From a virus, in IMG/VR virus record IMGVR_UViG_3300015371_000186, positions 1 through 23,252 of that record: a stretch of 23,252 nucleotides of DNA, one strand, 5' to 3'. This document shows, in pieces, positions 3,838 to 23,207 of the stretch. Position 1 is the stretch's first letter, and every line of letters begins with the position of its first letter. A program made the position numbers and the translations under genes. The notes below the pieces were generated by a model. The model searched no databases. It saw only the letters and a program-made list of their open reading frames with translations, and had not been told where the DNA came from.

Positions 3838-4016
3838 CTATGGCTCCCCCGCAGAGCGCCTTCCACGTTGCTCTGCGCGTCGTAGGTGAGTTGACGGATC
3901 AAGCCCTTCAGGGCGTTCTCCTGCTTGAGCGGCAGGTCGGCCGCCTCGATGGCCGAGAACAGCCCGCCCCGAACACGGTTGAAGCCGTCGCGGACCTCCT
4001 GGATGGCGGCGCTCAC
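3834..4016 (-). CDS. small helical protein between baseplate and fibre genes (60 aa)
   Basis: A short, almost wholly α-helical protein (AIQEVRDGFNRVRGG..., then a second helix with QENALKGLIRQLTYDAQ). I do not recognise the family. I prefer the GTG at 4016, which overlaps the preceding stop as GTGA, matching the coupling in this operon. A longer form from 4043 would add nine residues inside the preceding gene. Its position suggests a fibre-attachment or fibre-assembly helper, but this is inferred from context only. Confidence 0.65.
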   Translation of the reverse strand: MSAAIQEVRDGFNRVRGGLFSAIEAADLPLKQENALKGLIRQLTYDAQSNVEGALRGSHR

Positions 4017-4660
4017 GATGGGATCGGTTGCGGGCGGTCCCACACGATGATCCCCGGCGTCGAGGACTGGACCTCAGCCCACGTCGCGTAGGCGGCCTTG
4101 ACGTCGTTCCAGAGCGGCTTGGCCGCCTTGAGCGCCGCCCACGTCTGGCTGGTGGCGGTGGAGTAGTCGAGCTGGATGTCGGCGGGGAGAACCGAGTAGA
4201 TGTCGGCCAGCACCTGCTCGGGGTGTGGCGTCTGGGCAGCGTAGGTGCGGATCTGCAGGTAGTCCTCGGGGTGGGTCTGCCCGGCGCCCGAGCGCTCCAC
4301 GATCATCACCGCGCGGGCGCCGGTCAGCGAGCGCTGGGTGGCGCGGATGATCGAGTAGAACGTGCCGCGCTGCTGGTTGGGGTGGTCAGCCACCCACTCG
4401 CGCTGCATCGCCTCGGTCAAGCCGACCGGCAGACGCTCGCCCACGTACATGCCGAGGTGGGGGAGGGCTCGAGCCGGGCAGCGGGTCGGATCGAACAGCG
4501 GTCCCCAGCCGTCCTCCTCGCCGAGGAAGTTCACCAGCTCCTCGACGTCGTTGAACATCCAGCCGATGGCGTTGGCGTAGTCGGCGAGGTCCGGGGTCAG
4601 GTACGGCGCCCAGGCCTCGACGAGCAGTTCGCCGACCACGCTGACCGGGACCGGCGTCAT
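4013..4660 (-). CDS. baseplate protein, P2 gpI-like (215 aa)
   Basis: It lies directly after the J-like gene with an ATGA overlap and has the form of the P2 tail protein I family: an N-terminal helical part, an aromatic-acidic stretch (EEDGWGPLFDPTRCPARALPH, about 48-68), then L-P-H-L-G-x-Y-V-G and a Trp-containing segment that ends the domain. In P2 and Mu the I protein attaches the tail fibre to the J wedge. The C-terminal 45 residues have a spaced Trp pattern (TWAALKAAKPLWNDV, then TWAEV) seen in several actinophage tail proteins, probably a peripheral linker to the fibre. The fibre gene follows, as expected. Confidence 0.75.
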   Translation of the reverse strand: MTPVPVSVVGELLVEAWAPYLTPDLADYANAIGWMFNDVEELVNFLGEEDGWGPLFDPTRCPARALPHLGMYVGERLPVGLTEAMQREWVADHPNQQRGTFYSIIRATQRSLTGARAVMIVERSGAGQTHPEDYLQIRTYAAQTPHPEQVLADIYSVLPADIQLDYSTATSQTWAALKAAKPLWNDVKAAYATWAEVQSSTPGIIVWDRPQPIPS

Positions 4661-5769
4661 GTCACGGTCACGTTGATCGTGCCGGGCCGCGTCAGCGGTG
4701 CGGTGCCGGTCAGGTTGATGTCGGCGGTGCCGCCGTTGAGGGTCGCCGACTGCACGTAGCGGACCCCGGGCTGGGCGAGCACGCGCAGCAACTCGGAATA
4801 GCGCACCACGGTGTCGTTGAGCCAGTCATCGGTCGGCCCCTCGACCCCGCGCGGCCGGCCCCAGTTCAGCGGCGAGAGCCAGTCGGCGATGGCGCCCTCG
4901 CAGGCGGTGTCGATTGCGGCCGGCTCGTAGTCGGGCAGCGACACCACGGTGGCGGTGACGTTGATCGTCGTATAGGTCGGGTCGATCACGCTGTAGGTCG
5001 TGTTGACCTGGCGGTAGTCGTCGAACAGGTCCAGCACCGTGCCCTTGATGCTGCCCGGGCCCGTGCCGCCCGTGATGGCCTCGCCCGCCTCGTCGGTCAG
5101 CGCCACCGTCACCTGGCGCGCCTGGTTGACCATCGCGGTCGCTCGCCCCACGCCCGGGACCTGGAGCGCCATCAACTCGAAGTCGTGGCCGGTGACCAGC
5201 GTGGTGGTCTGCAGCTGCAGACGGTCGGCGAGGCGGTCCATGTAGGCGGCGTCGCTCTCGGAGTCTGAGCCGCCCGACGTCGGGGTCTGCACCTCGATCG
5301 AGGCGATCCACGGCAGGGGGGTCATCGGGTCGGCGAAGCCCCACTGGTCGTTGCCGTCGATGCCGATCTCGTTGGCGGTGATGGTGGCGGTGGCCGACGT
5401 GGTGCCCGGCGCGATGACCACGGGGTCGTCGGTCGTGAAGGCCACGCCGTCGAGGTCGAGCTCGACCGGCGTAGAGGTCGAGTAGCCGGCGTTGTCCAGA
5501 GCGGTGAAGACAGCGCTGCCGATCGCCGCCTGGCCCGGGTCGTAGGGAACGCCGACGAGCGAGATCCCGTAGTTGCGGAAGATGGCATCGGGCACGATCG
5601 AGGCGGCCTCGGCGACGTCGGCTGCCATCGCGGCCAGCGACTCGATCTGGATGACCTCGAGGTCGCCGTCCTGCCCCTCCCAGTCCTCCCAGGCATCGGC
5701 GAGGCGGTCAAGCGCCTCGTCGGCCAGCGCGTCCGCATCAAGGATGAATGGCACGACGATGTAGGGCAC
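4657..5769 (-). CDS. baseplate wedge protein, J-like (370 aa)
   Basis: Baseplate_J family protein (P2 gpJ / Mu gp47 / T4 gp6-like core). The N-terminus has helices followed by FRNYGISLVGVPYDPGQAA, close to the family pattern in which a Gly-rich stretch precedes an A-x-G-x-V strand. The central part holds the β-rich region with the conserved SDAAYMDRLADRLQL (about 170-184), then VPGVGRATAM, where new-wedge contacts form. The C-terminus has the usual LSPLNWGRPRG...VRYSELLRVLAQPGVRYV (about 294-338). It starts with GTG right after the TAA of the gp25-like gene. It should form the wedge ring joining hub to fibre. The length is in the family range. Confidence 0.85.
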   Translation of the reverse strand: MPYIVVPFILDADALADEALDRLADAWEDWEGQDGDLEVIQIESLAAMAADVAEAASIVPDAIFRNYGISLVGVPYDPGQAAIGSAVFTALDNAGYSTSTPVELDLDGVAFTTDDPVVIAPGTTSATATITANEIGIDGNDQWGFADPMTPLPWIASIEVQTPTSGGSDSESDAAYMDRLADRLQLQTTTLVTGHDFELMALQVPGVGRATAMVNQARQVTVALTDEAGEAITGGTGPGSIKGTVLDLFDDYRQVNTTYSVIDPTYTTINVTATVVSLPDYEPAAIDTACEGAIADWLSPLNWGRPRGVEGPTDDWLNDTVVRYSELLRVLAQPGVRYVQSATLNGGTADINLTGTAPLTRPGTINVTVT

Positions 5770-6165
5770 TTAGCTCTCCCCTCCTCCAGGTGATGGTGTG
5801 GCCCCGCCGAAGCCGCTGGACGCCTGCGAGGAGAAGGCCACGCCCTCGCCGGACAGCACCTGCACGACGTCGATGTGGCGGATGGCGGCGTCGGCCTCAT
5901 CGGCCCATTCGGTGATGTCCGCATCGGAGTCGGGCACGAGCCGCTGGAAGGCGTCGCGCAGGCCCGAGAGGTCGACGGGCACGTTGACGAACTCCGGCCA
6001 CTCCCAGCCGAAGTCGGGCCGCTCGTCACGGAAGCCCATCGGCGTCACGACCACGGCGAACTCCTGGCCGGTGATGTGCTCGGGCGAGCGCTGCTCGACC
6101 ACCGCCACCCGACCGTTGCTGCGTCGGAACGGGAAGGCGAAGTGCGGGAGGGTGGGGGTCGCCAT
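5770..6165 (-). CDS. baseplate wedge protein, gp25/W-like (131 aa)
   Basis: A small protein of the gp25-like family, which binds the sheath to the baseplate wedge in T4, P2 (gpW) and contractile injection systems. The family signature is visible in VVVTPMGFRDERPDFGWEW (about 38-56), where a strand is followed by G-x-R-x-x-R-P-D-F-G. A helical end (DAFQRLV, then ITEWADEADAAI) and a β strand follow (about 100-112). The last 20 residues are Gly/Ser/Pro-rich. The ATG at 6165 overlaps the preceding stop as TGATG. It is followed directly by the J-like gene, the standard order. Confidence 0.82.
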   Translation of the reverse strand: MATPTLPHFAFPFRRSNGRVAVVEQRSPEHITGQEFAVVVTPMGFRDERPDFGWEWPEFVNVPVDLSGLRDAFQRLVPDSDADITEWADEADAAIRHIDVVQVLSGEGVAFSSQASSGFGGATPSPGGGES

Positions 6166-6755
6166 CAGCCGACCCTCACCGGTGTGAGCTGCAGCCACCG
6201 CATCCGAACCGTCGAAGCCTGGCTCGCGTGGCGCTGCACCTGGTCCTTGACGACCGCCCCGGCAGCCAGCGTCCTCCTGAGCAGGATCGCCGTCGAACCT
6301 GAGACGCCGTTGACGCTCGGCACCCCCGCGTAAGCGTTGTCGGTGGCGGGGTCAGTGGAGCCGGTCCAGGCCAGGCCGACGTTCACGGCTCGCAACGTCG
6401 CGTCCGTGGTCTGGTAGGCGTTGGCCCCGTAGTGCATGTCGTAGATGCCCGCGAGCGGAGCCGTCTGCGGCAAGTTCCCGGCCGTCAGGTCGAGCCAAGC
6501 TACTGCCCCGATTGCCGTCGACACGGCGGCGTTGTACTCGCCTTCGAGCGGAGCGCCGCCAACGAACTGCCACTTGTAGGCGTCGCCGAAGCCCGCGTTG
6601 TAGCGCAGGTGCCACAACGAATCTTTGCCCGAGATGTAGTAGTAGACCTCCTGGCCGTCATACGGCGAAGCGGGCAGCGTCCCGACCGCAGCAGCGCCGC
6701 CGCCGGGGAGCACGTACTGCCAGGCGCTGCCGTCCCAGTACTTGAGCGCGGGCAT
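6165..6755 (-). CDS. tail/fibre-associated β-rich protein (196 aa)
   Basis: The N-terminus reads [13 protein letters not shown], the common Y-W-D-G-x-x-W motif of phage fibre anchors. It is followed by LPASPYDGQEVYYYISGKDS and LWHLRYN...YKWQFVGG (about 30-75), a combination frequent in actinophage minor tail proteins. The rest is β-rich (TAGNLPQTAPLAGIYDMHYG) and probably forms a jelly-roll. I use the ATG at 6755, which overlaps the upstream stop (TGATG). An earlier in-frame Met lies inside the upstream gene. It probably decorates the tail tip or forms a short fibre next to the large spike-fibre gene upstream. The specific role is unknown. Confidence 0.65.
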   Translation of the reverse strand: MPALKYWDGSAWQYVLPGGGAAAVGTLPASPYDGQEVYYYISGKDSLWHLRYNAGFGDAYKWQFVGGAPLEGEYNAAVSTAIGAVAWLDLTAGNLPQTAPLAGIYDMHYGANAYQTTDATLRAVNVGLAWTGSTDPATDNAYAGVPSVNGVSGSTAILLRRTLAAGAVVKDQVQRHASQASTVRMRWLQLTPVRVG

Positions 6756-9594: not shown

Positions 9595-11709
9595 TCAGTA
9601 GCCGAGTGGGCCGGAGCGGATAGCGTCGCTGGAGCTCCAGTCGGACTTGCCGTAGAAGTCCTCGGGCGAGGCGGCGCGCTTGGTCAGGTCGACGACCTTG
9701 ACGCCGAAGTGCACGTGGTCGTGGTGGCCCGTGACCTTCCAGCCCAGCTGGTAGCGCAGGCCGTCCTTGGTCTTGTCGTCGGTGCCGAAGTCATAGACGT
9801 GGTTGTGGTGCACGTTCATGCCGAACAGGCGGGCCAGCTCGTCGGCGAGGCCGTCGCCGTCCTTGGAGTCGATCGCCCCGTGGAAGGCCATGTCGGCGGC
9901 CCACGCCTGACTCGCCGGACCCTGGTGATCGGAGCGCCCGCCGCTGGAGGTTGCTCCGTGGCTGTCGTTGGCGGCCTTGACGTTGGCGGCGTTGAGCGTG
10001 CCGCCGCCCGAGGCAAACGCGTTGTGCTTGCGGCCGATCGGCAGCACGAACTCGTCGATGATCTCCTTCGGCGTCATCCCGCTGTCGATGTCCTTCAGCC
10101 TGCCGCCGGCGTTGGGCTGGCGCTCGCGCTCACGGATCTCGGTGGCGGGCTCGAGCTTCTCGCGCTCGGGCTGGCGCAGCGTGAAGGTCGAGCTGTAGGA
10201 GCCGCTCTGGCGGTTGATCTCCCAGATCAGCCAGCGCCCGGGCAGGCCCTTGGGGCGGGCCGTGGAGCCGGTCGAGAGCGGGCCGAAGCCGATCAGCTTG
10301 AAGACCTGGCCGGCGCGGAACTGGAACGGCTCGCAGATCAACTCCATCGTCATCTCGGTGGCCATGTGGCGCTCGCCGTCCCAGTTGGCATCGAAGCCGA
10401 TCAGCGCGGGGTCGTGGCGGTAGATGACCGCGGCCGGCTTCTGCCGGATCAGCGTCATGTCGGAGTCGAAGAAGACGGTCCGCCCATCGACGAACAGGCG
10501 CCAGCGGACCTCGTTGGCGAGCTCCTTCATCCCGTCCCAGTAGCGCTCCTTGGGATGCTCGGGCGTGCCGATCTGGAAGTTGTATTGCGCCCGGTAGTAG
10601 GTGCTGCCGCCCCCGAAGCCGTCGCCGTAGGCGGCCACCCACGCCTCGGCCTCGGACTCGTGCTCGCCGAAGAAGTCCTCCGCTGCCTTGTCGGAGCCGA
10701 AGTTGGAGCGGTTGCCCTGGTTGACGTAGCAGAGGTGGCCGAGCGAGCGATACGAGTCCGTCTTCTCCTTGTGCATCGCCTTGACGCCGCCGATCAGCCC
10801 GCCCTCGGGAGCGTTGAAGCCCTTGCCGCCGATCAGGCAATACTTGGCCATCATCTCGGTGTCGCTGGGCGGGACGTTGGCCGGGTCGGCCGCGAACATG
10901 CCGCTGTACTTCGACCCTCCCTGGTTGGTCATCAAGGCGCCCATGTTGGACTCGCCGATCGCCGTCATCATCAGCGCCACCGCGGCGTCGTGGGGGGCGT
11001 GCAGGCGCTTGGCGACGTCGAGGGCCCGCTCGGCCTGCCCGATCTGGGTCGGGTTCGCCTTGATGCCCTTGACGGTGACGTCGTCGCCCTTGTGCAGGCC
11101 CTGCCCCTTGTTGTCGTGGCGGTCCTTGGGATCAACCTTCTGGGTGCCGGCGATGTCCTGCTTGACGTGCAGCTCGTCGGACTTGAACTTCAGCGGGTGC
11201 TCCTTGACGTCCTGGACGAGGCTGCGTAGGAACTCGGCCCGGGTCGTCTTGCCGCGCCGGGTCTTCTTGGGCCCCTTCTTGTGCAGGAGCAGGACGACCG
11301 GGCGCTCCATGAAGGTCAGCGTCAACTCGAGCGCCTGGCCCGCCTGGGTCGAGAGGCCCAGCTGGGTCAGGCGCCACCAGTTGGCCGAGCGCGGCGGGTA
11401 CTGGATCTCGATCTTGTCCAGCTTGCCGTCGCGGTCGATATCGAAGAACTCATACAGCTCGAACTCGGGGTCGGCGACGGTGATCTCCAGCGTGCTCGAC
11501 CCCTCCACGGTGTCCATCACGCTCACGCTGAGGATGGCGTCGGTGAGGCGCTCGACCTTGGGGGCCTTCTTGTTGCCGTCGACCCGCTCCTGGCGGATCT
11601 GCTGGGCGATGGCGCCGTACTCGAAGCTCGACAGCGCGAACTCGCTGTCGACGTCGTCGATCTTGCGCTTGTCGCGGTGGCTGCGGGCGGTTCGGCTGGC
11701 GCTCGCCAT
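9595..11709 (-). CDS. baseplate hub with inserted lysozyme-like and C-terminal M15-like peptidase domains (704 aa)
   Basis: The hub part is split. Residues about 50-145 (strands such as [18 protein letters not shown]) and about 366-525 ([24 protein letters not shown], ..., [21 protein letters not shown]) fit the gp27/gpD-type hub. Between them is a lysozyme/transglycosylase-like insert (about 220-365), with candidate catalytic Glu253 in TAIGESN and a Gly-rich region after it. The C-terminus (about 575-670) resembles an M15-type peptidoglycan peptidase: SDHQGP (His595), AADMAFHG (Asp606) and HHDHVHFG (His665, His667) are the expected zinc ligands. It should puncture and locally digest the cell wall during injection, which suits a thick Gram-positive wall. 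It starts in a TGATG overlap with the LysM gene. Confidence 0.82.
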
Positions 11710-12494
11710 CAGACCTTCTTGGGGTTGCGGTGCTTGCGGCGGGTGACCACGCTGCCTGCCGTGACCGGACGGACGTACTGCGTCAACTCAACCACGCAGA
11801 GCTGGCGCACGCGCTCGCCCGTGTGGGGGTTGCGGATCGGGTCGGCGTCCCACTCGATGTCGCTGATCCACCACACCGGGGCGTTCGGGTTGTTCTTCGT
11901 CCACTGGTAGTTGAGCGGGATCAGCGGGATCGGGTTGCCGTTGGTGCCGGTGGTCGACACGCGGATGATCGAGCTCGGCCCCACCGCGGCGCCCGGGAAG
12001 TTGCCGCGGCCGGCCATCCGCTCCAACTCAGCGATGTCGTTCTCCACGCCCGAGCCATCGCTCATCTGAAAGCCATAGCGGTGGTCGCGGTCGACGCCCT
12101 CGAAGCGGATCGGGATCTGCATGACGATCGGGTTGAAGCCCGAGAACACCGACAGCGCTGAGCGCTCCGAGCGATTGACGGTGTCGATCTGGGCATAGCC
12201 CTGGATGATCGTCGGCGCCGTGTCGCCGGCGCGGACGTGGAAGAAGAACTCCGCCGAGAGCTTGTCGGGAACCTTCAGCGCCCGCCCGATCTTCAGCTTC
12301 TTGTAGGCCGAGCGGACGTGGTTCATCTGCTTGATCTTCGGTGCCAGCTCAGGGTGCCCGCGGTTGGCCGCGATCTTCTTGATCGTGCGGGCGCCCTTGC
12401 GGACACGGATCGTGCGTGTCCCCTCAAAGCGCGCATCGCCACCACGCTCGACCGCGAAGGAGATCAGCGGGGTGCCGTCGCCCGTGAAGGGCAT
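11709..12494 (-). CDS. LysM baseplate protein, gp53/Afp7-like (261 aa)
   Basis: Residues about 28-76 look like a LysM domain: a strand (TIRVRKGARTIKKIA), a short loop with RGHPELAPKIKQMNHV, and a final strand KIGRALKVP. The LysM protein of contractile tails and injection systems (T4 gp53, Afp7) lies at the baseplate and usually precedes the hub gene, as here. The C-terminal part is β-rich (IRFEGVDRDHRYGFQM, then WWISDIEWDADPIRNP). The start ATG (12494) overlaps the stop of the frameshift frame as TAATG. In most phages a tape measure gene lies between the chaperones and this gene; here there is none. Confidence 0.75.
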   Translation of the reverse strand: MPFTGDGTPLISFAVERGGDARFEGTRTIRVRKGARTIKKIAANRGHPELAPKIKQMNHVRSAYKKLKIGRALKVPDKLSAEFFFHVRAGDTAPTIIQGYAQIDTVNRSERSALSVFSGFNPIVMQIPIRFEGVDRDHRYGFQMSDGSGVENDIAELERMAGRGNFPGAAVGPSSIIRVSTTGTNGNPIPLIPLNYQWTKNNPNAPVWWISDIEWDADPIRNPHTGERVRQLCVVELTQYVRPVTAGSVVTRRKHRNPKKV

Positions 12495-13110
12495 TACTTC
12501 GCTGCCTCCTCTTGGGTGCGGCGAACCCGGTCCACCAGCGCCGACAGCCAGATCAGCATGGGCCGGTCCTCGGTCGTGTAGAGCACGACCGGGTCGATGG
12601 GGATGCCGCAGATGGTGGCGTTATGCGCGAGCACGATCAGGTCGTCGGAGAAAAATCCGCCGCTTGCTCCTCGTCGACGTCGGCCTCGGCGCTGGACAGC
12701 CACTCGACGTACTCGGCCCAGTGGCGGGTCAGGAAGGTGTCGCGGGTGAAGCAGGCCAGCACCGCCTGGCGCACCGTCAGGCCCTCGACGTCGATGCCGA
12801 GCATCTTGGCCAGGGCCGGCCCCCAACCGACGTTGAGCTCCTTGGCGCCCTCGGGCGTAATCTCGTAGGCATTGACCGACGCAGCGATCAGCTGGTCGGC
12901 GGCCGTGTAGATCTCCCGGGTCGCCTCGTCGCGCTGGCGCTCATGGCGGGCATTGATCTTGCGCCCCTCGGCGTAGGTCATGGCCCGGTACTCGACCTCG
13001 AGGATGCCCTCATAGCCAGGCACCTCCAGGCGCGTCGTCTGCCGGTCCAGCAGCACCTCGCGCCGCGCCTGCGCTCTCGCCTGCAGCGACCCTGCTCCGT
13101 TGGACTCCAT
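12494..13110 (-). CDS. tail assembly chaperone, frameshifted GT-type fusion (205 aa)
   Basis: This is the long product predicted from a -1 frameshift. Translation starts at 13110, slips one base back at the T-run at 12655-12651, and continues in the second frame to the TAA at 12496-12494. The fused protein is 205 residues: 153 from the first frame and 52 from the second (FFSDDLIVLAH... ending RRTQEEAAK). The second frame has no plausible start of its own and is fully protein-like only after the slip site. G/GT pairs of this type help fold or wrap the tail tube assembly in λ, P2 (E/E') and most tailed phages. The pair lies after the tube gene, the standard place. Confidence 0.7.
12637..13110 (-). 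CDS. tail assembly chaperone, short form (G-type, 157 aa)
   Basis: The unshifted product is a mainly helical protein with an acidic C-terminus (AEADVDEEQAADFSPTT). Motifs such as EVPGYEGILEVEYRAMTYAEGRKINAR (in pieces, residues about 28-55) are like the globular part of actinophage G proteins. It follows the tube gene after an 84-base gap. The start ATG (13110) has GGTGAAGG just upstream. A weak Shine-Dalgarno suits a protein needed in moderate amounts. Identification rests on the position and on the -1 extension. Confidence 0.72.
   Translation of the reverse strand: MESNGAGSLQARAQARREVLLDRQTTRLEVPGYEGILEVEYRAMTYAEGRKINARHERQRDEATREIYTAADQLIAASVNAYEITPEGAKELNVGWGPALAKMLGIDVEGLTVRQAVLACFTRDTFLTRHWAEYVEWLSSAEADVDEEQAADFSPTT
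12648..12658 (-). promoter_or_regulatory. probable -1 ribosomal frameshift site
   Basis: The minus strand here reads GGATTTTTCTC. In the first frame the codons are GAT TTT TCT. Slipping one base back on the five-T run re-pairs Phe-tRNA on TTT (12655-12653), and the next codon is TTC. The reading frame that follows is open to 12494 and encodes the C-terminal part of the GT-type chaperone. This is a single-tRNA or T-run slip rather than a perfect X-XXY-YYZ heptamer. It resembles the T-rich site of P2 E/E'. Confidence 0.65.
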
Positions 13111-13194: not shown

Positions 13195-13617
13195 CTAGGT
13201 CGCCAGCTCGTCCATCGACCCGACGACCTCGAGGAAGGCCACGTCGCCGGTGTTGACGTCGACGTTGGGGATCTGCACCGACTTGACGATCCCCTTGCGG
13301 GTGAACGAGAAGCCCGTGTCAGCGCTGCCGTTGATGTTCAGGTAGGTCACCGACACTTCCAGCGTGCCGCGGCCTGAGCGGCCCTCGAAGGTCTTCGCGA
13401 GGCCCGCGATAGCGTCCGTGAACTGCGTGGTGACCGTGATGTCGTTGCGGCTGGTCGGTCCGCCGATCGCGACCTGGCGTGTCATCCCGCCCGGCCGGGT
13501 CTTCTGGTCGTCGGCCTCGAGGCCACCGCCTTCGAGGGTCGCCCACATTCCGCCCACGGGGCGGCCATCCAGCTTGACCCGGATGTCCGCCATATCGGCT
13601 CGGATGTAATACGCCAT
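13195..13617 (-). CDS. tail tube protein (140 aa)
   Basis: A small, β-rich protein directly after the sheath gene, with the size and order of contractile-tail tube proteins (T4 gp19, P2 FII). The N-terminus reads MAYYIRADMADIRVKLDGRPVGG. Strands with alternating polarity follow (ITVTTQFTDAIAGLAK, then LEVSVTYLN). A loop (FEGRSGRGT) and the C-terminal pair (NVDVNTGDVAFLEVVGSM) fit the tube β-sandwich. AAGGAG lies at good distance from ATG 13617, fitting high expression. The tube forms the DNA channel, polymerising inside the sheath. A short intergenic hairpin follows. Confidence 0.75.
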   Translation of the reverse strand: MAYYIRADMADIRVKLDGRPVGGMWATLEGGGLEADDQKTRPGGMTRQVAIGGPTSRNDITVTTQFTDAIAGLAKTFEGRSGRGTLEVSVTYLNINGSADTGFSFTRKGIVKSVQIPNVDVNTGDVAFLEVVGSMDELAT

Positions 13618-13630
13618 GACTCTCCTTCAC

Positions 13631-14770
13631 CTAGACATTGCCGCCGACGGGCACCGTGACCAGCGAGATCTGCACGGCCTTGGCGTGCAGGGTGAGGCAC
13701 ACGTCGGCGACCGCCTTGAGCTGGCCCTGAGCGATCGAATTCGGCGTGTTGACTGTCGCGCCGACCTCGACGCGGAAGGCATCCTCGGGCGAGGCCCCGT
13801 ACAGCGCCCCCGCCTGGAAGTAGCCCAGCAGCATCCCTTCGAGCTGGTTCTTCAGCGCGTTGGCGAGCCGGCCCTGGCCGTCGATGGGGCGGAACATGTA
13901 GTTCTCGCCGATCGCCTGGGACTCCGCCACCAGCGCCATCCGGGTGCGTGAGCAGTTCAGCTGCCAGTAGGGGTTGTCGGCCGACTGCGGGACCAGCGAC
14001 TGGAAGCCGTAGTTCTCCAGCACGCCGTAGACCTCGGCCGACGTGTTGACACCCGCGTCCAGCATCTGGATGCGGTCGGCGGCCAAGAAGTCGTAGGCGA
14101 GGTCGTTGACGTACTGGTAGGGCAGCCAGCGGCCGGCCGCCGCCTGGTTGGGGTTGCCGGTCTCATCGACGCGGGCGCACAGGGCAGCGATCGCCGCCGA
14201 GGGCGGCAGCCTGCGGGCGGTGCCCGCCACCACGCCCGCGGGGGCCGGGACCAGCACGTAGGGGGCGAAGATGCCGCCTGAGCCGACTGTCTCGTCCTGG
14301 ACGAGGTTGCCGTAGGTCTTCAGGGCGGTGACGTCGCTGATGTCGGCGGTGTCGGCGATCGCCACGCGGTTGTTGCCCACCGCGTGGTTGAGCAGCGCCG
14401 TCAGGGTCGCCCCGGTGGCGTCCCAGACGTAGTTGACCGCGCTGACCTGGCCGGGGCCCATCGTGGCCGGGATGAGGTCGAGCGCCGCCTGCAGGCCCGA
14501 CACGGCGCCGCGACAGACGACCGCCCGCTTGCCGCCCTCGCGGAAGTAGACGTCCATGGCGTCCCAGAGCATGATGTTCTGGGCGGTGCGGATGCCGAAC
14601 TGCGCCTCGAAGTCAGCGAGGTCTCGGACCACGGTCGGGACGCCGGTCGGACCAACGTCCGTGTAGGCGGCGACGAACCAGGTGTCCGTGGCGGTGGGGA
14701 CGCCGCTGGTGGGCGGCGCAGTGCGTGTGGTGACGCTGACGCCCAGGGTCGGGCTGCCGTAGGTGGGCAC
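13631..14770 (-). CDS. contractile tail sheath protein (379 aa)
   Basis: The strongest evidence for a contractile tail. The C-terminal domain carries sheath-family features: RLANALKNQLEGMLLGYFQAGAL, then the conserved SPEDAFRVEVGATVNTPNSIAQGQL and the final strand VQISLVTVPVGG (about 320-378). The middle has PSAAIAALCARVDETGNPNQAAAG (about 187-210), the usual A-x-x-D-x-x-x-G-x-W/P-x-A-P-A-G region of sheath proteins. N-terminal strands (GVSVTTRT, ATDTWFVAAYTDVGP) fit the domain that swaps strands between subunits. At 379 residues it is compact, close to the core without large surface insertions. The start is GTG (14770), overlapping the preceding TAG, with GGAGG upstream. Tube, chaperone and baseplate genes follow. 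Confidence 0.9.
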   Translation of the reverse strand: MPTYGSPTLGVSVTTRTAPPTSGVPTATDTWFVAAYTDVGPTGVPTVVRDLADFEAQFGIRTAQNIMLWDAMDVYFREGGKRAVVCRGAVSGLQAALDLIPATMGPGQVSAVNYVWDATGATLTALLNHAVGNNRVAIADTADISDVTALKTYGNLVQDETVGSGGIFAPYVLVPAPAGVVAGTARRLPPSAAIAALCARVDETGNPNQAAAGRWLPYQYVNDLAYDFLAADRIQMLDAGVNTSAEVYGVLENYGFQSLVPQSADNPYWQLNCSRTRMALVAESQAIGENYMFRPIDGQGRLANALKNQLEGMLLGYFQAGALYGASPEDAFRVEVGATVNTPNSIAQGQLKAVADVCLTLHAKAVQISLVTVPVGGNV

Positions 14771-15480
14771 TACTCATCCTCCACGGACGGGGGTGTGTGC
14801 CCGGCGAAGTCCACAATGACCTCGTCTGAGGTCGGCACGTCGGGCCAGGGCTGGTCGGGATCGACCGGGGGGTCGGGCGGAAGGTCGGGGTCCGGGTTGA
14901 GGAACGGCGAGTCCGTGCCACGGCGGATCCACGGCACCCAGATGTCATACACGCCCATGCCCGCCGAGAGGGCGCGCGAGCGGTTGGTGGGGTCGTCGAT
15001 CGCCCGGGGGCGCTCAGAGACGACCTCGATGCCGCCGGCGAAGCCCTCGAGGCTGGGGCGGTCGAGCAGCATCATCGTCACCGCCGCGATGTAGAGCGAG
15101 CTCTGCAGGCGCGCCTCCACCATCGAGCGGCCGCGTGAGACGACCGAGATGGCCGTGCGGTAGGTGGCCGACCAGAAGTTGTCGCCGTCGCGCTGCCAGT
15201 CCAGGGCCTCTGCGGATGTGACGATCACGGTCGGCATCCGCGCGTCGGAGTAGAAGTCCTGATCGTCCTCCTCGTAGGTGGTGGTGTAGACGGTCGGGCG
15301 GGCCATCCAGCGCACGGGCTTGCCCTCGCGACGTTCGGCCTCAGACAGGTAGGTGTTCAGCCAGCGCTGCAGGAAGGAGACCACCGCCCGGTCGACCGTG
15401 ACCTGATGGATGAACGGCTTGTCGGCGATCGGCGCGACAACGCCCGGAGGCTTGGGCGTCGTAAACAGAGGGCCGCTCAT
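14770..15480 (-). CDS. head-tail or tail terminator protein (236 aa)
   Basis: I do not recognise it with certainty. The start at 15480 overlaps the preceding stop (ATGA). Longer extensions to the right read through the upstream gene. It begins MSGPLFTTPKPPG and has an α/β body with ARPTVYTTTYEEDD, MPTVIVTSAEA and YRTAISVVSRGRSMVEARLQSSLYIAAV (the last in pieces), a pattern like tail terminator or completion proteins that close the tail before head joining. The C-terminal 50 residues are Pro/Asp-rich (PDPDLPPDPPVDPDQPWPD) and likely disordered. Its place between the connectors and the sheath supports the terminator role. Confidence 0.6.
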   Translation of the reverse strand: MSGPLFTTPKPPGVVAPIADKPFIHQVTVDRAVVSFLQRWLNTYLSEAERREGKPVRWMARPTVYTTTYEEDDQDFYSDARMPTVIVTSAEALDWQRDGDNFWSATYRTAISVVSRGRSMVEARLQSSLYIAAVTMMLLDRPSLEGFAGGIEVVSERPRAIDDPTNRSRALSAGMGVYDIWVPWIRRGTDSPFLNPDPDLPPDPPVDPDQPWPDVPTSDEVIVDFAGHTPPSVEDE

Positions 15481-16182: not shown

Positions 16183-16455
16183 CTACTTGTCCAGAACCGT
16201 CTTTGAGGAGTCGTAGTCGTCAGGCTCTACGAGGTCGCGCTCGCCGGGCGAGTTGGGGCCGGTCTCGAGCGCGAACTCCTTGTCGTCGAACGCCTCCGGT
16301 CGCTCGCCGAACCAGCCGCGCTCCTGGACCTTCTCCGGGTCCCAGTTGTCGTCGGACTCCTGCTGCTCGCCCTGCTGCTGCTCGGTATCAGCGGGCTGCT
16401 GCTCGCTCTGCTGGGGCCTGGACTCAGACTGCTTGGGCTTCGCGGATTCGGGCAT
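16183..16455 (-). CDS. Gln-rich acidic small protein (90 aa)
   Basis: The N-terminal 40 residues are low-complexity, rich in Gln, Ser and Glu (SEQQPADTEQQQGEQQESDD). The rest is acidic, with EKVQERGWFGERPEAFDDKEF. The start at 16455 has GGAGG seven bases upstream and overlaps the end of the glycosyltransferase-like gene by 32 bases. Function unknown. Such small acidic proteins near the capsid gene are often head decoration or assembly helpers, but I see no diagnostic motif. Confidence 0.6.
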   Translation of the reverse strand: MPESAKPKQSESRPQQSEQQPADTEQQQGEQQESDDNWDPEKVQERGWFGERPEAFDDKEFALETGPNSPGERDLVEPDDYDSSKTVLDK

Positions 16456-16963
16456 AGTGCGCCTCCGGTCGGTAGTGCATGGCGTGGGCCACGGGCGGGT
16501 TGTGGACGTGGAAGGTGGCCTCGAACGGCGCGCCGTCGAGGCCGAAGACGTGCCGCAGGGCGGCCGTCACGGCGACGTCGAGCATCTTCCACTCGTGCGT
16601 CACCCAGCGCTCATAGAGCTTGGGTGCCGCCGACATGACCTCGGCCGTCACCTTGAAGCAGCCGTTGGAGCCGAGCAGGGCATGGTCGCCCTGATCCTCG
16701 TTGACATCCCAGCGGCCCGGGAGCGGATAGTGGAAGCCGCACCAGTGGTGGCGGCAGTCGCGGACGGACTCGATCGCACCCGGCCACGGTGCGATGTCGT
16801 CCTCCACGATGACGAACGACTCGCCGTCCCGCCACAGCTCTGCCAGCAACTCCGCATAGGCGCAGTCGCCCTCGAGCACCCGGACCTCGGGCTCGAGGTT
16901 CTCGGCCCGCAGACAGCGGACCGCGACGTTGTCGCGAGACAGGGCGGGAACGACGATGCGCAT
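16424..16963 (-). CDS. glycosyltransferase-like protein (179 aa)
   Basis: A short nucleotide-sugar transferase-like fold. The N-terminus is a strand (RIVVPALSRDN), and VIVEDDIAP (51-59) fits a DxD metal/nucleotide motif with the usual hydrophobic strand before it. HALLGSNGCFKVTAEVM (94-110) resembles the G-x-N/G-x-x-F acceptor region of GT25-like or GT-A enzymes, and a basic-aromatic C-terminus follows (HNPPVAHAMHYRPEAHY). At 179 residues it is shorter than most GT-A enzymes. The ATG overlaps the capsid stop as TGATG, so it is translated with the major capsid protein. Phage-encoded transferases next to virion genes are known to glycosylate capsid or tail proteins in mycobacteriophages. That role here is inference. 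Confidence 0.65.
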   Translation of the reverse strand: MRIVVPALSRDNVAVRCLRAENLEPEVRVLEGDCAYAELLAELWRDGESFVIVEDDIAPWPGAIESVRDCRHHWCGFHYPLPGRWDVNEDQGDHALLGSNGCFKVTAEVMSAAPKLYERWVTHEWKMLDVAVTAALRHVFGLDGAPFEATFHVHNPPVAHAMHYRPEAHYARIREAQAV

Positions 16964-19967: not shown

Positions 19968-21425
19968 CTAGTAGAGGGTGATGCTCCGATTGAGGGGCTT
20001 GACGCTGCGTAGCGTAACCGCTCGGTCAGCTGTCATCGCCAGGGCGACCGCCGCGTCGATGCGCTCCTTGCTCTTGCGCTTGGAGATCTTCCACCCTCCG
20101 CGCTCAGTCGGGGAGATGACGGCGTTGAGGACCTGCTCGCGAAACAGGGCGTCGCCATCGTGCACCAGCCGGCGGCCCACGACGAGCTCATAAAGCTGCT
20201 CGGAGGCGGGCGCCATGCGGGCCGCGTTCTGCGGGAACTCGACCATCGCGAGCCCCTCGTCAGCCAGAATCTCTGCAGACTCGCGGAAGCTCCACGGGTC
20301 ATAGCCGATCTCGCGGACCCCCGCCGAGTGGTCTCGGGCGCGTCCCGCCAGGCGGGCGCGGACATCGGAGACGCCGAAGTTCTCGCCCTCCTCCTCGGGC
20401 AGCATGATCTCCGAGCGGACGTGCAGGGTGTCGTCGTGCCACTGGCCCCAGACGATCGCGGCCGAGTCGCGCTTGATCCCCACGTCGAGGCACATGGCGA
20501 TGATCGGCTCGTCGGGGTTGATGACCACCTTGCCGCGGCACGCATCCCACTCGTAGGGCCGAATCCAGGCGTCTTCGGTTTCGGTCCATTGATTGAGGTG
20601 AAGGCGTCTAAAAACGCTCTCCGGGAGGCGCTTGGACTCGCGCTCGAGGTCCTCGAGGCGGATCCAGCTGGCGGGGTTGGCGGCTTGCCAGGCGACAGGG
20701 TCGCGCCAATCCAGCTCAGGGGCGGCCTCATGCCATTCAAAGAGGAAGCCCTCCTTGCGCATGGCCCTGATCCCGCCCTCGTCCTTGACCTCGCGGCCGT
20801 GGCGGTAGAGCTGGTAACAGATCGAATCGCGGTCCCAGCCGGCCGTGGTGATCGAGACGATCAGCGGGCTGATCTGGGCCAGCTGGCCGGTCGTGAGCGC
20901 GTAGTACAACTCAGGCGAGGGGTGCGCCCACAACTCGTCGATGATGACGAGGTAGGGGTTGAGGCCGTACTGCAGCGGGGCGTCGGAGGAGAGGACGCGG
21001 AAGATGCCGTTGTTGGCCTTGCAGGTGATGACGTTGCGGGTCGGCGTCAGCCAGTCCGACAGGCGCGGCGAGGCCTTGACGAACTGGACCGCCTGGTCAA
21101 AGACGATCCGGGCCTGGTCGCGGGAGGCGGCGGCGGCATAGACCTCGGGCGAGGGGTGGTCGGCGCCGAGCAGTCCGTGCAGGCCCAGGACCGCGGCCAT
21201 GGTCGACTTGCCGTTCTTGCGGGCGACCCCGACCAGGGCCTCCTGGTAGACGCGGGCGCCGTCGTCGTAGACGAGGAAGAGCTCGTCGAACAGCTTCTGC
21301 TGCCACGGCTCGACGTGCATGAAGCGCCCCGCCCAGCGGCCCTTGGTCTGCACGATCCACTCGCTGGCGAACTTGCTGACGCGAGCTCCATGCCCGCCAA
21401 GGATCTGGCGCTCAGCTGTTTGCAC
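19968..21425 (-). CDS. terL: terminase large subunit (485 aa)
   Basis: Packaging motor and headful/cos nuclease. Walker A is GVARKNGKST (66-75), the form usual in HK97- and λ-like terminases, and Walker B is YLVIIDE (158-164). The coupling motif SITTAGWDRDS (191-201) lies after it. The C-terminal RNase H-like nuclease has acidic residues Asp314 and Asp320 (MCLDVGIKRDS), Asp376 (EIGYDPWSF) and Asp457 (KERIDAAVALA). The start is GTG at 21425, four bases after the preceding stop, with no clear Shine-Dalgarno. An earlier start would overlap the small membrane protein. No small terminase gene is recognisable upstream, which is unusual, and it may lie outside the window. Confidence 0.92.
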   Translation of the reverse strand: MQTAERQILGGHGARVSKFASEWIVQTKGRWAGRFMHVEPWQQKLFDELFLVYDDGARVYQEALVGVARKNGKSTMAAVLGLHGLLGADHPSPEVYAAAASRDQARIVFDQAVQFVKASPRLSDWLTPTRNVITCKANNGIFRVLSSDAPLQYGLNPYLVIIDELWAHPSPELYYALTTGQLAQISPLIVSITTAGWDRDSICYQLYRHGREVKDEGGIRAMRKEGFLFEWHEAAPELDWRDPVAWQAANPASWIRLEDLERESKRLPESVFRRLHLNQWTETEDAWIRPYEWDACRGKVVINPDEPIIAMCLDVGIKRDSAAIVWGQWHDDTLHVRSEIMLPEEEGENFGVSDVRARLAGRARDHSAGVREIGYDPWSFRESAEILADEGLAMVEFPQNAARMAPASEQLYELVVGRRLVHDGDALFREQVLNAVISPTERGGWKISKRKSKERIDAAVALAMTADRAVTLRSVKPLNRSITLY

Positions 21426-21428
21426 CGG

Positions 21429-21557
21429 TCAGGCAGGCTGCTCGTTGGCAGCGAGTTCGGCGAGCTTGACCCACACGTAGGCGGCGACGATGGCGAGGAC
21501 CGCGACCAGCACGACGATCCCCACGTTCTCGTTGTGGTGGATCGTCAGGCGGATCAT
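21429..21557 (-). CDS. small single-span membrane protein (42 aa)
   Basis: The frame starts at ATG 21557 (or the GTG immediately before it) and ends at 21429, four bases before the terminase start. After a polar N-terminus (MIRLTIHHNEN) comes one hydrophobic helix (VGIVVLVAVLAIVAAYVWV), then a short polar tail ending NEQPA. The positive charge near the N-terminus and tight packing between genes support it. It could be a holin or antiholin paired with the 51-aa protein upstream, or a small phage membrane protein of other function. The topology alone does not decide this. Confidence 0.6.
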   Translation of the reverse strand: MIRLTIHHNENVGIVVLVAVLAIVAAYVWVKLAELAANEQPA

Positions 21558-21560
21558 CAC

Positions 21561-21716
21561 CTAGGGCGGGCCGCGGCGGCCGCGGTAGTCGCTGTAGCCG
21601 TAGGTGTGCGGCACGAACAGCAGGATGACGCCGAACACGATGCAGATGATGCCGATGACGAACCAGCCCGCCAGCAGCCACAGCAGCAACCCGATGAGGA
21701 TGAGAGCGAGGCCCAT
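21561..21716 (-). CDS. small holin-like membrane protein (51 aa)
   Basis: Two hydrophobic segments lie close together (GLALILIGLLLWLLAGW, then FVIGIICIVFGVILLFV), followed by a short polar and basic tail (YSDYRGRRGPP). The size and two-span hairpin shape match many small holins. The gene follows the GH5-like gene by 15 bases and is followed by another small membrane protein, an order like a lysis cassette. There is no recognisable endolysin, and the gene lacks a Shine-Dalgarno but shares a 10-base leader with the GH5-like gene. Confidence 0.62.
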   Translation of the reverse strand: MGLALILIGLLLWLLAGWFVIGIICIVFGVILLFVPHTYGYSDYRGRRGPP

Positions 21717-21731
21717 TACGCAGAAGCTACT

Positions 21732-22136
21732 TCAGCAGGCGCCCGTCTGCTGGAAGGTGGTCCGCACCGACGTGTTCTGGATCGAGTCGGGGTCGGTGAC
21801 GGCGATGGCCTGCCCGTCGTTCTTCCAGTGGCCGTAGATGCCGTCTTGGGTGAGGTCGCCGTCGCTCATGCGCCAGTCCCACCACAGCCAGCCGATGCCG
21901 TAGGTCTGGGCGTCGTGGATCGAGGGCCAGTAGTCGACCGGCCCGTCGATCCAGTCGCCGACGAAGGCGATGCCGGCCTGGATCGGGAGCCCGGAGTCGC
22001 GCACGGCCTGGAAGGCCTCGTGCAGGCTCATCCCGTACGTGTTCTGGTAGTAGCCGCTCTGGCCCCAGTAGCTCTGCCAGCCGAGCACGAGGTTGTGCAG
22101 CGGGTCGGCGTCGATGAGCTCCTGGCCGCGCGCGAG
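21732..22136 (-). pseudogene. C-terminal part of the GH5-like protein, in frame after the amber codon (134 aa)
   Basis: Directly after the TAG the same frame continues with LARGQELIDADPLHNLVLGW, the part that follows the NEP region in GH5 enzymes, and runs on to the TGA at 21734-21732. It includes the conserved-looking YGIGWLWWDWRMSDGD strand. In the family a catalytic Glu occurs in PxxxGEFG. Here the equivalent is LPIQAGIAF, with Ile in place of Glu. The His of the HxY motif is replaced in GWQSYW. It has no Shine-Dalgarno of its own; a GTG at 22088 is possible but loses 16 residues. The part may be translated only by read-through, or be dead. Confidence 0.6.
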
Positions 22137-22880
22137 CTATTTTGGCATATTGCGCCCACCGTTGCGCGACAGGATGTAGAGCGGCGCCTCATAGCCGGCC
22201 GCGCGGAGTCGGGCGATGGCGTCCTTGGCGTTGGCGGCCCACTGGGCGTCGGTGTCCTCGAAGCCCTCGCCCTTGGCGTGGATGACGATGTGGTCCTCGT
22301 AGCGCTTCAGGAGCGCTTGGACGTCTGAGCGCAGCAGCGTGTTGGTGGCGGCCGTGCCGCCCTCCTGGCCGTCGATGGCGATGTCGACGAGCATGTGCCC
22401 GGCGATCCCGCGCTGGATCAGGTCCTCGATCTGGGCCAGCGTGAAGGGCGGCTCGCCGGTCGGGGTCGGTGAGATGTACTCCGGCAGGACGCGGACGGTG
22501 TTGGCGCCGGTCTTGGCGATCTCGCTCACGAACGTCGGCGAGAGCCAGTTGGTCTGCCAGAACATCTGCTCGACGCCGCGCACGACGACCTTCTGGCCGC
22601 AGGGGTCCAGCAGGCTCGAGCCCTGCGTGTGGTAGACGGCCGCCGGCGTCGGGGTCGGAGTCGGAGTCGGAGTCGGAGTAGCCGTCGGAGTAGCCGTCGG
22701 GGTCGGGGTCGGGGTCGGGGTCTCCGTGGCCGTCGGGGTCGGCGTGACCGTCGGGGTCGGCGTCGGCGTCGAGCACGGCCAGTGCCGATTGCAGTGGGGT
22801 GGCTGCGCCGGGGCGCCGCTGTTCACAGCGGCAGTCAGAATGAGCGTCCCTGCCACAAGGGCCGCGATGCGGCGTGGCAT
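22137..22880 (-). CDS. secreted GH5-like protein, N-terminal part up to an amber codon (247 aa)
   Basis: From ATG 22880 the protein has a signal-peptide-like start (MPRRIAALVAGTLILTAAV, then a small-residue cleavage region SGAPAQ), a Thr-Pro linker (about 37-79), and a GH5 mannanase/cellulase-like domain from about 82. Evidence for the family: VVVRGVEQMFWQTNWLS, GANTVRVLPEYISP, HMLVDIAIDG, and the AIARLRAAGYEAPLYI helix-strand pair. The catalytic NEP site appears as KGEG (Glu205), so the Glu may remain but its neighbours do not. The frame stops at TAG 22139-22137, and the missing part of the same domain continues in the same frame. Translation may start at a TTG upstream, but the signal peptide favours 22880. 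Role unknown; possibly cell-surface binding. Confidence 0.68.
   Translation of the reverse strand: MPRRIAALVAGTLILTAAVNSGAPAQPPHCNRHWPCSTPTPTPTVTPTPTATETPTPTPTPTATPTATPTPTPTPTPTPAAVYHTQGSSLLDPCGQKVVVRGVEQMFWQTNWLSPTFVSEIAKTGANTVRVLPEYISPTPTGEPPFTLAQIEDLIQRGIAGHMLVDIAIDGQEGGTAATNTLLRSDVQALLKRYEDHIVIHAKGEGFEDTDAQWAANAKDAIARLRAAGYEAPLYILSRNGGRNMPK
22643..22770 (-). repeat. Thr-Pro linker coding repeat
   Basis: Imperfect 6-base units (plus strand GTCGGA, GTCGGG, GTCGGC) encode about 20 Thr-Pro pairs with a few Ala, Val and Glu interruptions. This is the extended linker between the signal peptide and the GH5-like domain, typical of secreted actinobacterial glycoside hydrolases. The simple repeat is likely to vary in length between isolates. 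Confidence 0.85.
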
Positions 22881-23207
22881 GGCGGAGAAGCTACTCGAGT
22901 TTGCGGCGGAGCACCTCGAGGTGGTTGCCGCAGCAACGGAGATCCCGGGATCTAGTCCGTCGGCGATCGCCAAACGGGAAAATGACCCCGTCGGCGACGC
23001 GAGAGACGTCGCGGAGGCGGAGGAGGGGGAAAATGCCCGCAGAACTTGCCCAGAACTAAAGGCAAAAGGGGGTTCTGGGCAAGTTCTCGCGGAGGCTAGA
23101 ACTTGCCCAGAACTAAAGGGAAAACCCCCTTTTGGGCAAGTTCTCGCTCCGGGGTGGCGGGCTTGACGGACCCGCCGTGAGGCCAGGGGTTAGGCCACCG
23201 TGATGGG
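22881..23207. other. gene-less upstream region
   Basis: No convincing gene is visible in this 327-base stretch on either strand. It holds the two tandem 57-bp hairpin repeats (23041 on), a GGCGATCGCC palindrome (22962-22971), a GCGACG/CGTCGC inverted repeat (22993-23011), and two copies of a GGGAAAATG motif followed by CCC (around 22976-22989 and 23028-23038). I see no convincing -35/-10 pair. Minus-strand reading frames are all very short. It probably contains regulatory DNA for the GH5-to-terminase operon. Confidence 0.55.
23041..23144. repeat. two tandem 57-bp units, each a strong hairpin with TGGGCAAGTT arms
   Basis: Unit 1 has perfect 16-bp arms, AGAACTTGCCCAGAAC (23041-23056) and its inverse (23072-23087). 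Unit 2 has the same left arm (23098-23113) and a right arm that pairs over 12 bp (23133-23144). The units start 57 bases apart. Differences cluster in the loops (GGCAAAAGGGGG versus GGGAAAACCCCC), so the arms look conserved. The core word is the same as in the operator at 2889-2939. Candidate roles: operators, origin iterons or a segregation/packaging site. Confidence 0.75.

Follow-up and report, generated by a model that had tools for sequence, protein, structure and literature searches.

How does a nearly complete contractile tail module come to lack the gene for its tape measure protein (TMP)? Phages with long tails are considered to have such a protein almost without exception. The question is raised by the window, the stretch of DNA analysed here, which is the entire linear IMG/VR record IMGVR_UViG_3300015371_000186 (23,252 bp). 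Related records reach 41–60 kb, against 23,252 bp for the window, which represents about half a genome.

The late operon and its empty tape measure slot

Our analysis showed a myovirus-type late operon on the minus strand, with terminase, portal, capsid, sheath, tube, gp25-like wedge, J and I in a single operon. It runs from the large terminase (TerL) through portal, scaffold, capsid, connector-type protein, terminator-like protein, sheath, tube and the chaperone pair to the LysM-like protein, hub, fibre, gp25-like protein, J, I and collar (see table). A 179-aa protein encoded between the capsid and connector genes (16424–16963, minus strand), glycosyltransferase-like by eye only, is common to the relative L002 (62%) and was not seen in most relatives. 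The closest relatives in the head region, L002 and L008, have up to 82% identity but stop short of the slots discussed below.

Table. Features of the late operon of the window, from the terminase to the tail proteins
Feature	Coordinates	Strand	Remarks
Large terminase (TerL)	19968..21425	-	Pfam TerL; without the preceding small terminase gene seen in relatives
Head-tail connector-type protein, 167 aa	15477..15980	-	Conserved in 16 relatives; upstream of TCP slot
Vacated tail completion protein (TCP) slot	15477..15480	-	Genes 15980-15477 and 15480-14770 overlap by ATGA
Probable tail terminator, 236 aa	14770..15480	-	Conserved in 12 relatives; position fits HK97 order; downstream of TCP slot
Tail sheath	13631..14770	-	PHROG 23, E 1.5e-19
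Tail tube	13195..13617	-	PHROG 5102, E 2.4e-7
Tail assembly chaperone, first frame (TAC1), 157 aa	12637..13110	-	Homologous to chaperone in 11 relatives
Probable -1 slip site GGATTTTTC	12650..12658	-	Also present in L043 (GCGGATTTTTC); other relatives have GGATTTT-like sites
Chaperone -1 frame (TAC2 part)	12494..12703	-	Aligns with relatives' -1 product; about 7-9 residues shorter at end
Vacated TMP slot	12492..12496	-	TAATG junction; relatives have 548-849 aa TMP there
LysM-like baseplate protein, 261 aa, full length	11709..12494	-	Shares its start Met with relatives; 39-41% identical to them
Hub with two lytic-domain regions, 704 aa	9595..11709	-	42% identity over residues 6-673 to L053 hub
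Collagen-repeat tail fibre, 945 aa	6755..9592	-	Pfam Collagen 6.3e-9; tail-fibre PHROGs; not TMP
gp25-like baseplate wedge	5770..6198	-	51.6% identity to L053; PHROG 5026, weak
Baseplate J	4657..5769	-	Pfam Baseplate_J 6.1e-23
Tail protein I-like	4013..4660	-	Tail_P2_I E 0.012, below cut-off; 46-47% identity to L053 and L054

A sequence-only reading of this DNA had stated that there is no room for a TMP gene, since the second chaperone frame overlaps the LysM gene by one base. Both the coordinates and the TAATG junction hold: the TAA of the chaperone -1 frame, which ends at 12494, shares one base with the ATG of the LysM gene. The slot sequence, GCGAAGTAATGCCC, resembles the junctions between TMP and LysM genes in L053 and L059 (CTAATG). 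No tape measure gene follows the chaperone pair, and none was found in any frame of the 23,252-bp record upon tblastn search with the TMPs of seven relatives (best E 0.16). Profile HMMs with filters off found no significant TMP in the same record (best E 0.38), and a genome search of the record with the TMP alignment as query gave no match. A tape-measure search and a comparison of gene order in relatives had both been proposed in the sequence-only reading. The search, run here on the 23,252-bp record, found no TMP; the comparison found the slot filled in every relative that covers it and empty only in the window.

The related contigs were found by alignment-based scans, and nine of them (L043/L057, L045/L061, L046/L056, L047/L058, L053, L054, L055, L059 and L060) have the same tail module as the window. 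When viral contigs were scanned with the sheath or LysM protein of the window as a single query, there were no matches; genome-contig scans with the sheath and LysM alignments found no relative and hence gave no host, and tblastn of the hub and LysM proteins against isolated phages gave no matches. All nine contigs have a TMP of 548–637 aa between the chaperone and LysM genes, and all four of these TMPs that were tested were labelled as tape measures by PHROGs. Four more distant contigs (L064, L070, L074 and L077) have a TMP or TMP-like gene of 626–849 aa in the slot, the one in L074 being recognised solely from its position, length and hydrophobic segments. A TMP is also annotated in the slot of the isolates Abba, DalanDe and Cantare. 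In total, the slot holds a TMP or TMP-like gene in 13/13 metagenomic relatives covering it and in 3/3 isolated phages, and the earlier judgement that an empty slot is unusual is well founded.

In the sheath tree, the window adjoins a group of 12 relatives, with L064, L070, L074, L077 and the isolates outside. Three of these 12 (L003, L016 and L044) stop short of the TMP slot and are uninformative about it. Because the outgroups carry TMP or TMP-like genes, the simplest reading is that TMP loss is a derived state on the window's branch. Judged from these comparisons, the absence is more than an annotation gap, and the TMP is a core gene of the clade that is missing specifically in the window.

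The contigs L053 (IMGVR_UViG_3300015373_000041) and L054 (IMGVR_UViG_3300046729_000010) match the window in tail gene order over the whole stretch between connector-type and collar genes, with 44–49% identity in the sheath and LysM proteins, and the L053 hub shares the M15-like C-terminus. Unlike the window, they have a TCP gene and a TMP of 599–625 aa in the usual slots. No match to the terminase, portal or capsid of the window turned up in the stretches of L053 and L054 compared. More broadly, the tail module of the window recurs in L053, L054, L059, L060 and L047, whose TerL, portal and capsid either fail to match those of the window or are not covered. Since several of these five share a different family of ~446 aa upstream, an exchange of head and tail modules is suggested. 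The TMP of L053, the nearest relative (L053:8124-10001), is of the PhageMin_Tail domain type, unlike most of the clade, and because of this difference the TMP slot may be an exchange point in the clade.

The contractile actinophages Abba (Arthrobacter), DalanDe (Gordonia) and Cantare (Brevibacterium) have the order sheath, tube, chaperone, TMP, LysM/minor tail protein, gp25-like protein and baseplate J. They differ from the window in the long TMP (1067–1366 aa) between chaperone and LysM genes, and in the tail completion/Neck1 gene that is annotated in Abba and Cantare. A second gene of Cantare (L007), at 36914–38137, is annotated as a tail length tape measure protein and lies far from the first (20369–24469).

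A second vacated slot and the small terminase region

Our census of head-tail families present in at least nine relatives showed that the window is without exactly two, TMP and TCP (gpZ-like). The TCP gene of the relatives (~140 aa) lies between the genes of the connector-type protein and the terminator in 14/14 relatives covering that slot. No TCP of the gpZ or HK97 gp10 type precedes the terminator in the window, and no match to it was found in the slot or in the 23,252-bp record. The slot reads CCATGAGCGG, which resembles the junctions between TCP and terminator genes in relatives, for example GAATGAGCGT in L046.

The relatives' gene is probably a TCP, as indicated by PHROG 5, Abba gp11 and synteny, and its family gives a profile match to the known TCP/Neck1 family. 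PHROG 5 ("tail completion or Neck1") matched 5 out of 13 members (best 7.4e-9), hhalign gave E 1.2e-7 against Abba gp11 (annotated tail completion/Neck1), and an HK97 gp10-family gene sits in the same gene order. The direct comparison with HK97 gp10 was not significant. An AlphaFold model of the TCP-like protein (mean pLDDT 66.5) gave no usable match in a PDB fold search. In the model, long helices at the N-terminus are followed by weak central strands and a C-terminal helix. This order resembles that of the 80alpha TCP as described, a similarity that we regard as no more than a lead. Within the tail of phage 80alpha, TCP and TMP bind each other, a contact seen only recently, and the TCP has been equated with lambda gpZ, SPP1 gp16.1 and HK97 gp10 (PMC11661146). 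By this precedent, the two missing proteins would be direct partners in the tail lumen.

A TerS-like gene (~180 aa; small terminase), named by us from position and sequence, lies upstream of TerL in 12/12 relative loci with sequence there. None was found in the window; the gene could sit just past the contig end, and we gave this absence less weight. The displacement or loss of TerS in the window suggests that the late operon was rearranged on the window's branch. The absence of a TMP from its slot, reported by the sequence-only reading, is upheld by our analysis; the parallel loss of TCP (15477/15480) and that of TerS from its slot had been missed.

In place of the TerS-like gene, the region 21426–21731 encodes a 51-aa membrane protein. 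Adjoining the TerL region, 21732–22973 (minus strand) encodes a secreted protein that resembles glycosidases, its family assigned by eye, and contains a Thr-Pro repeat linker. This gene has a single in-frame TAG at 22139–22137, and its protein had no Pfam match and no match in related loci.

The retained chaperone, the hub and the fibre

The frameshifted chaperone pair is present in the window, with a -1 frame overlap and the conserved slip site GGATTTTTC. As a measure of constraint, we used the window's identity to relatives divided by the identity among relatives. This ratio was 0.99 for TAC1 vs 0.81–0.92 for the other genes of at least 140 aa, and the chaperone thus seems not to be relaxed relative to other window genes. 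The client of this chaperone is the TMP, as established for lambda gpG/gpGT and gpH. Because the chaperone constraint and the slip site are kept, a TMP that is still made, or a very recent loss, is favoured.

The hub and fibre are the longest tail proteins in the window, and a takeover of the tape measure role by one of them would fit their length. We consider such a takeover very improbable. Upon search against PHROGs, no TMP family matched the hub or the fibre, and both proteins align with hubs or fibres of relatives that also have a TMP. The sequence-only reading had remarked that neither looks like a coiled-coil tape measure. The hub and fibre have no TMP sequence, their helix content is lower than that of TMPs, and they have at most one hydrophobic segment; both were rejected as candidates. 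The list of alternatives given earlier (the gene has moved, length is controlled in another way, or another protein took over) was a fair one, with this last option now disfavoured as far as the hub and fibre are concerned.

The pair of lytic domains in the hub had also been taken as a sign that TMP functions were redistributed. This was rejected, since such domains occur in relatives with an intact TMP. The alignment of the window hub to the hub of L053, which has a TMP, includes the M15-like C-terminus (by motif), and the hub of L043, which also has a TMP, has an NlpC/P60-like C-terminus (Pfam E 0.0013). The hubs of TMP-bearing relatives have a lysozyme-like middle region (by eye) of the same kind as that of the window.

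Explanations for the absence

Both tail-side junctions, of TMP and of TCP, retain clean stop/start overlaps, and the other core head-tail genes are full length. When random excisions were simulated in seven relatives, a window-like clean TMP junction arose in 0.84% of cases, the simulation being a simple one with generous limits set by us. An assembly or sequencing artefact would mean that stretches of TMP (~1.8 kb) and TCP (~0.4 kb) were dropped and that the real slots are filled. The IMG/VR record carries no coverage figure, both genes are present in every relative, and no second contig with either junction was found. However, two independent false joins must both have hit gene boundaries and kept the stop/start overlaps, for which the simulated frequency applies to one alone, and the chaperone and TMP gene ends of the relatives share no long word that could cause a false join. 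We regard an artefact as unlikely. The two clean junctions appear to argue against it and against random decay as well, and it is quite probable that in the actual genome, too, neither the TMP nor the TCP gene occupies its slot.

If so, the most likely reading is that the two genes are encoded elsewhere or supplied in trans, ahead of a recent defect and of a working tail without TMP. The phage could be defective or domesticated, having recently lost genes and forming no infectious particles of its own, as three normally essential genes (TerS, TCP and TMP) are missing from their slots and a cargo gene near the right end has an in-frame TAG. But the remaining core head-tail genes are full length, TerS may lie just beyond the contig end, and random decay is not expected to leave two clean excisions that keep the overlaps; we find this explanation improbable too. 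A working contractile tail could also need neither TMP nor TCP, with a different ruler, or limits on growth like those of the type VI secretion system (T6SS), determining its length. Such a tail would accord with the joint loss of both lumen partners, the clean junctions and the intact flanking genes. A precedent machine exists in T6SS classes 1–3, whose contractile sheath and tube form with no tape measure (PMC5924787). Unlike the T6SS, the window has the operon of a phage, in which a frameshifted chaperone accompanies terminase, portal and capsid, and no sign of T6SS-like length control. The chaperone and its frameshift site are retained and unrelaxed, the record holds no candidate replacement ruler, and the open-licence papers searched reported no phage without a TMP. 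We hold this possibility to be rather unlikely, and we place little credence in its extension to a working phage lineage without TMP and TCP, in which tail length and the holding of the DNA end are achieved by other means and the chaperone is kept.

Our favoured explanation, which we put forward tentatively, is a clean removal of TMP and TCP, with both encoded outside the fragment or supplied in trans and the TMP still in use. The two genes would have been cleanly excised from their ancestral slots in an otherwise intact head and contractile-tail operon. They would now be encoded in the part of the genome beyond the 23,252-bp fragment, or come from a helper or co-resident phage. Tail assembly would proceed as usual, from a nucleus of hub and TMP through growth of the tube to the length of the TMP, followed by the terminator and then the TCP. 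The chaperone normally serves the TMP, and from its retention we infer that the phage still uses a TMP, and therefore that TMP and TCP are most likely found elsewhere in the genome or in trans. A relocated TMP was not itself observed within the 23,252-bp fragment analysed. Relocation would have no precedent in the clade, because nine relatives were searched over the whole record and in each the TMP matches fell in one gene, in the usual slot. Two events would be needed, since the TMP and TCP genes are a few kb apart in relatives.

The window's lineage offers a natural test of whether TMP and TCP form one functional unit, and of whether a phage can assemble a contractile tail in their absence. 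Should the two genes sit elsewhere, the lineage would show how strongly conserved gene order can break.
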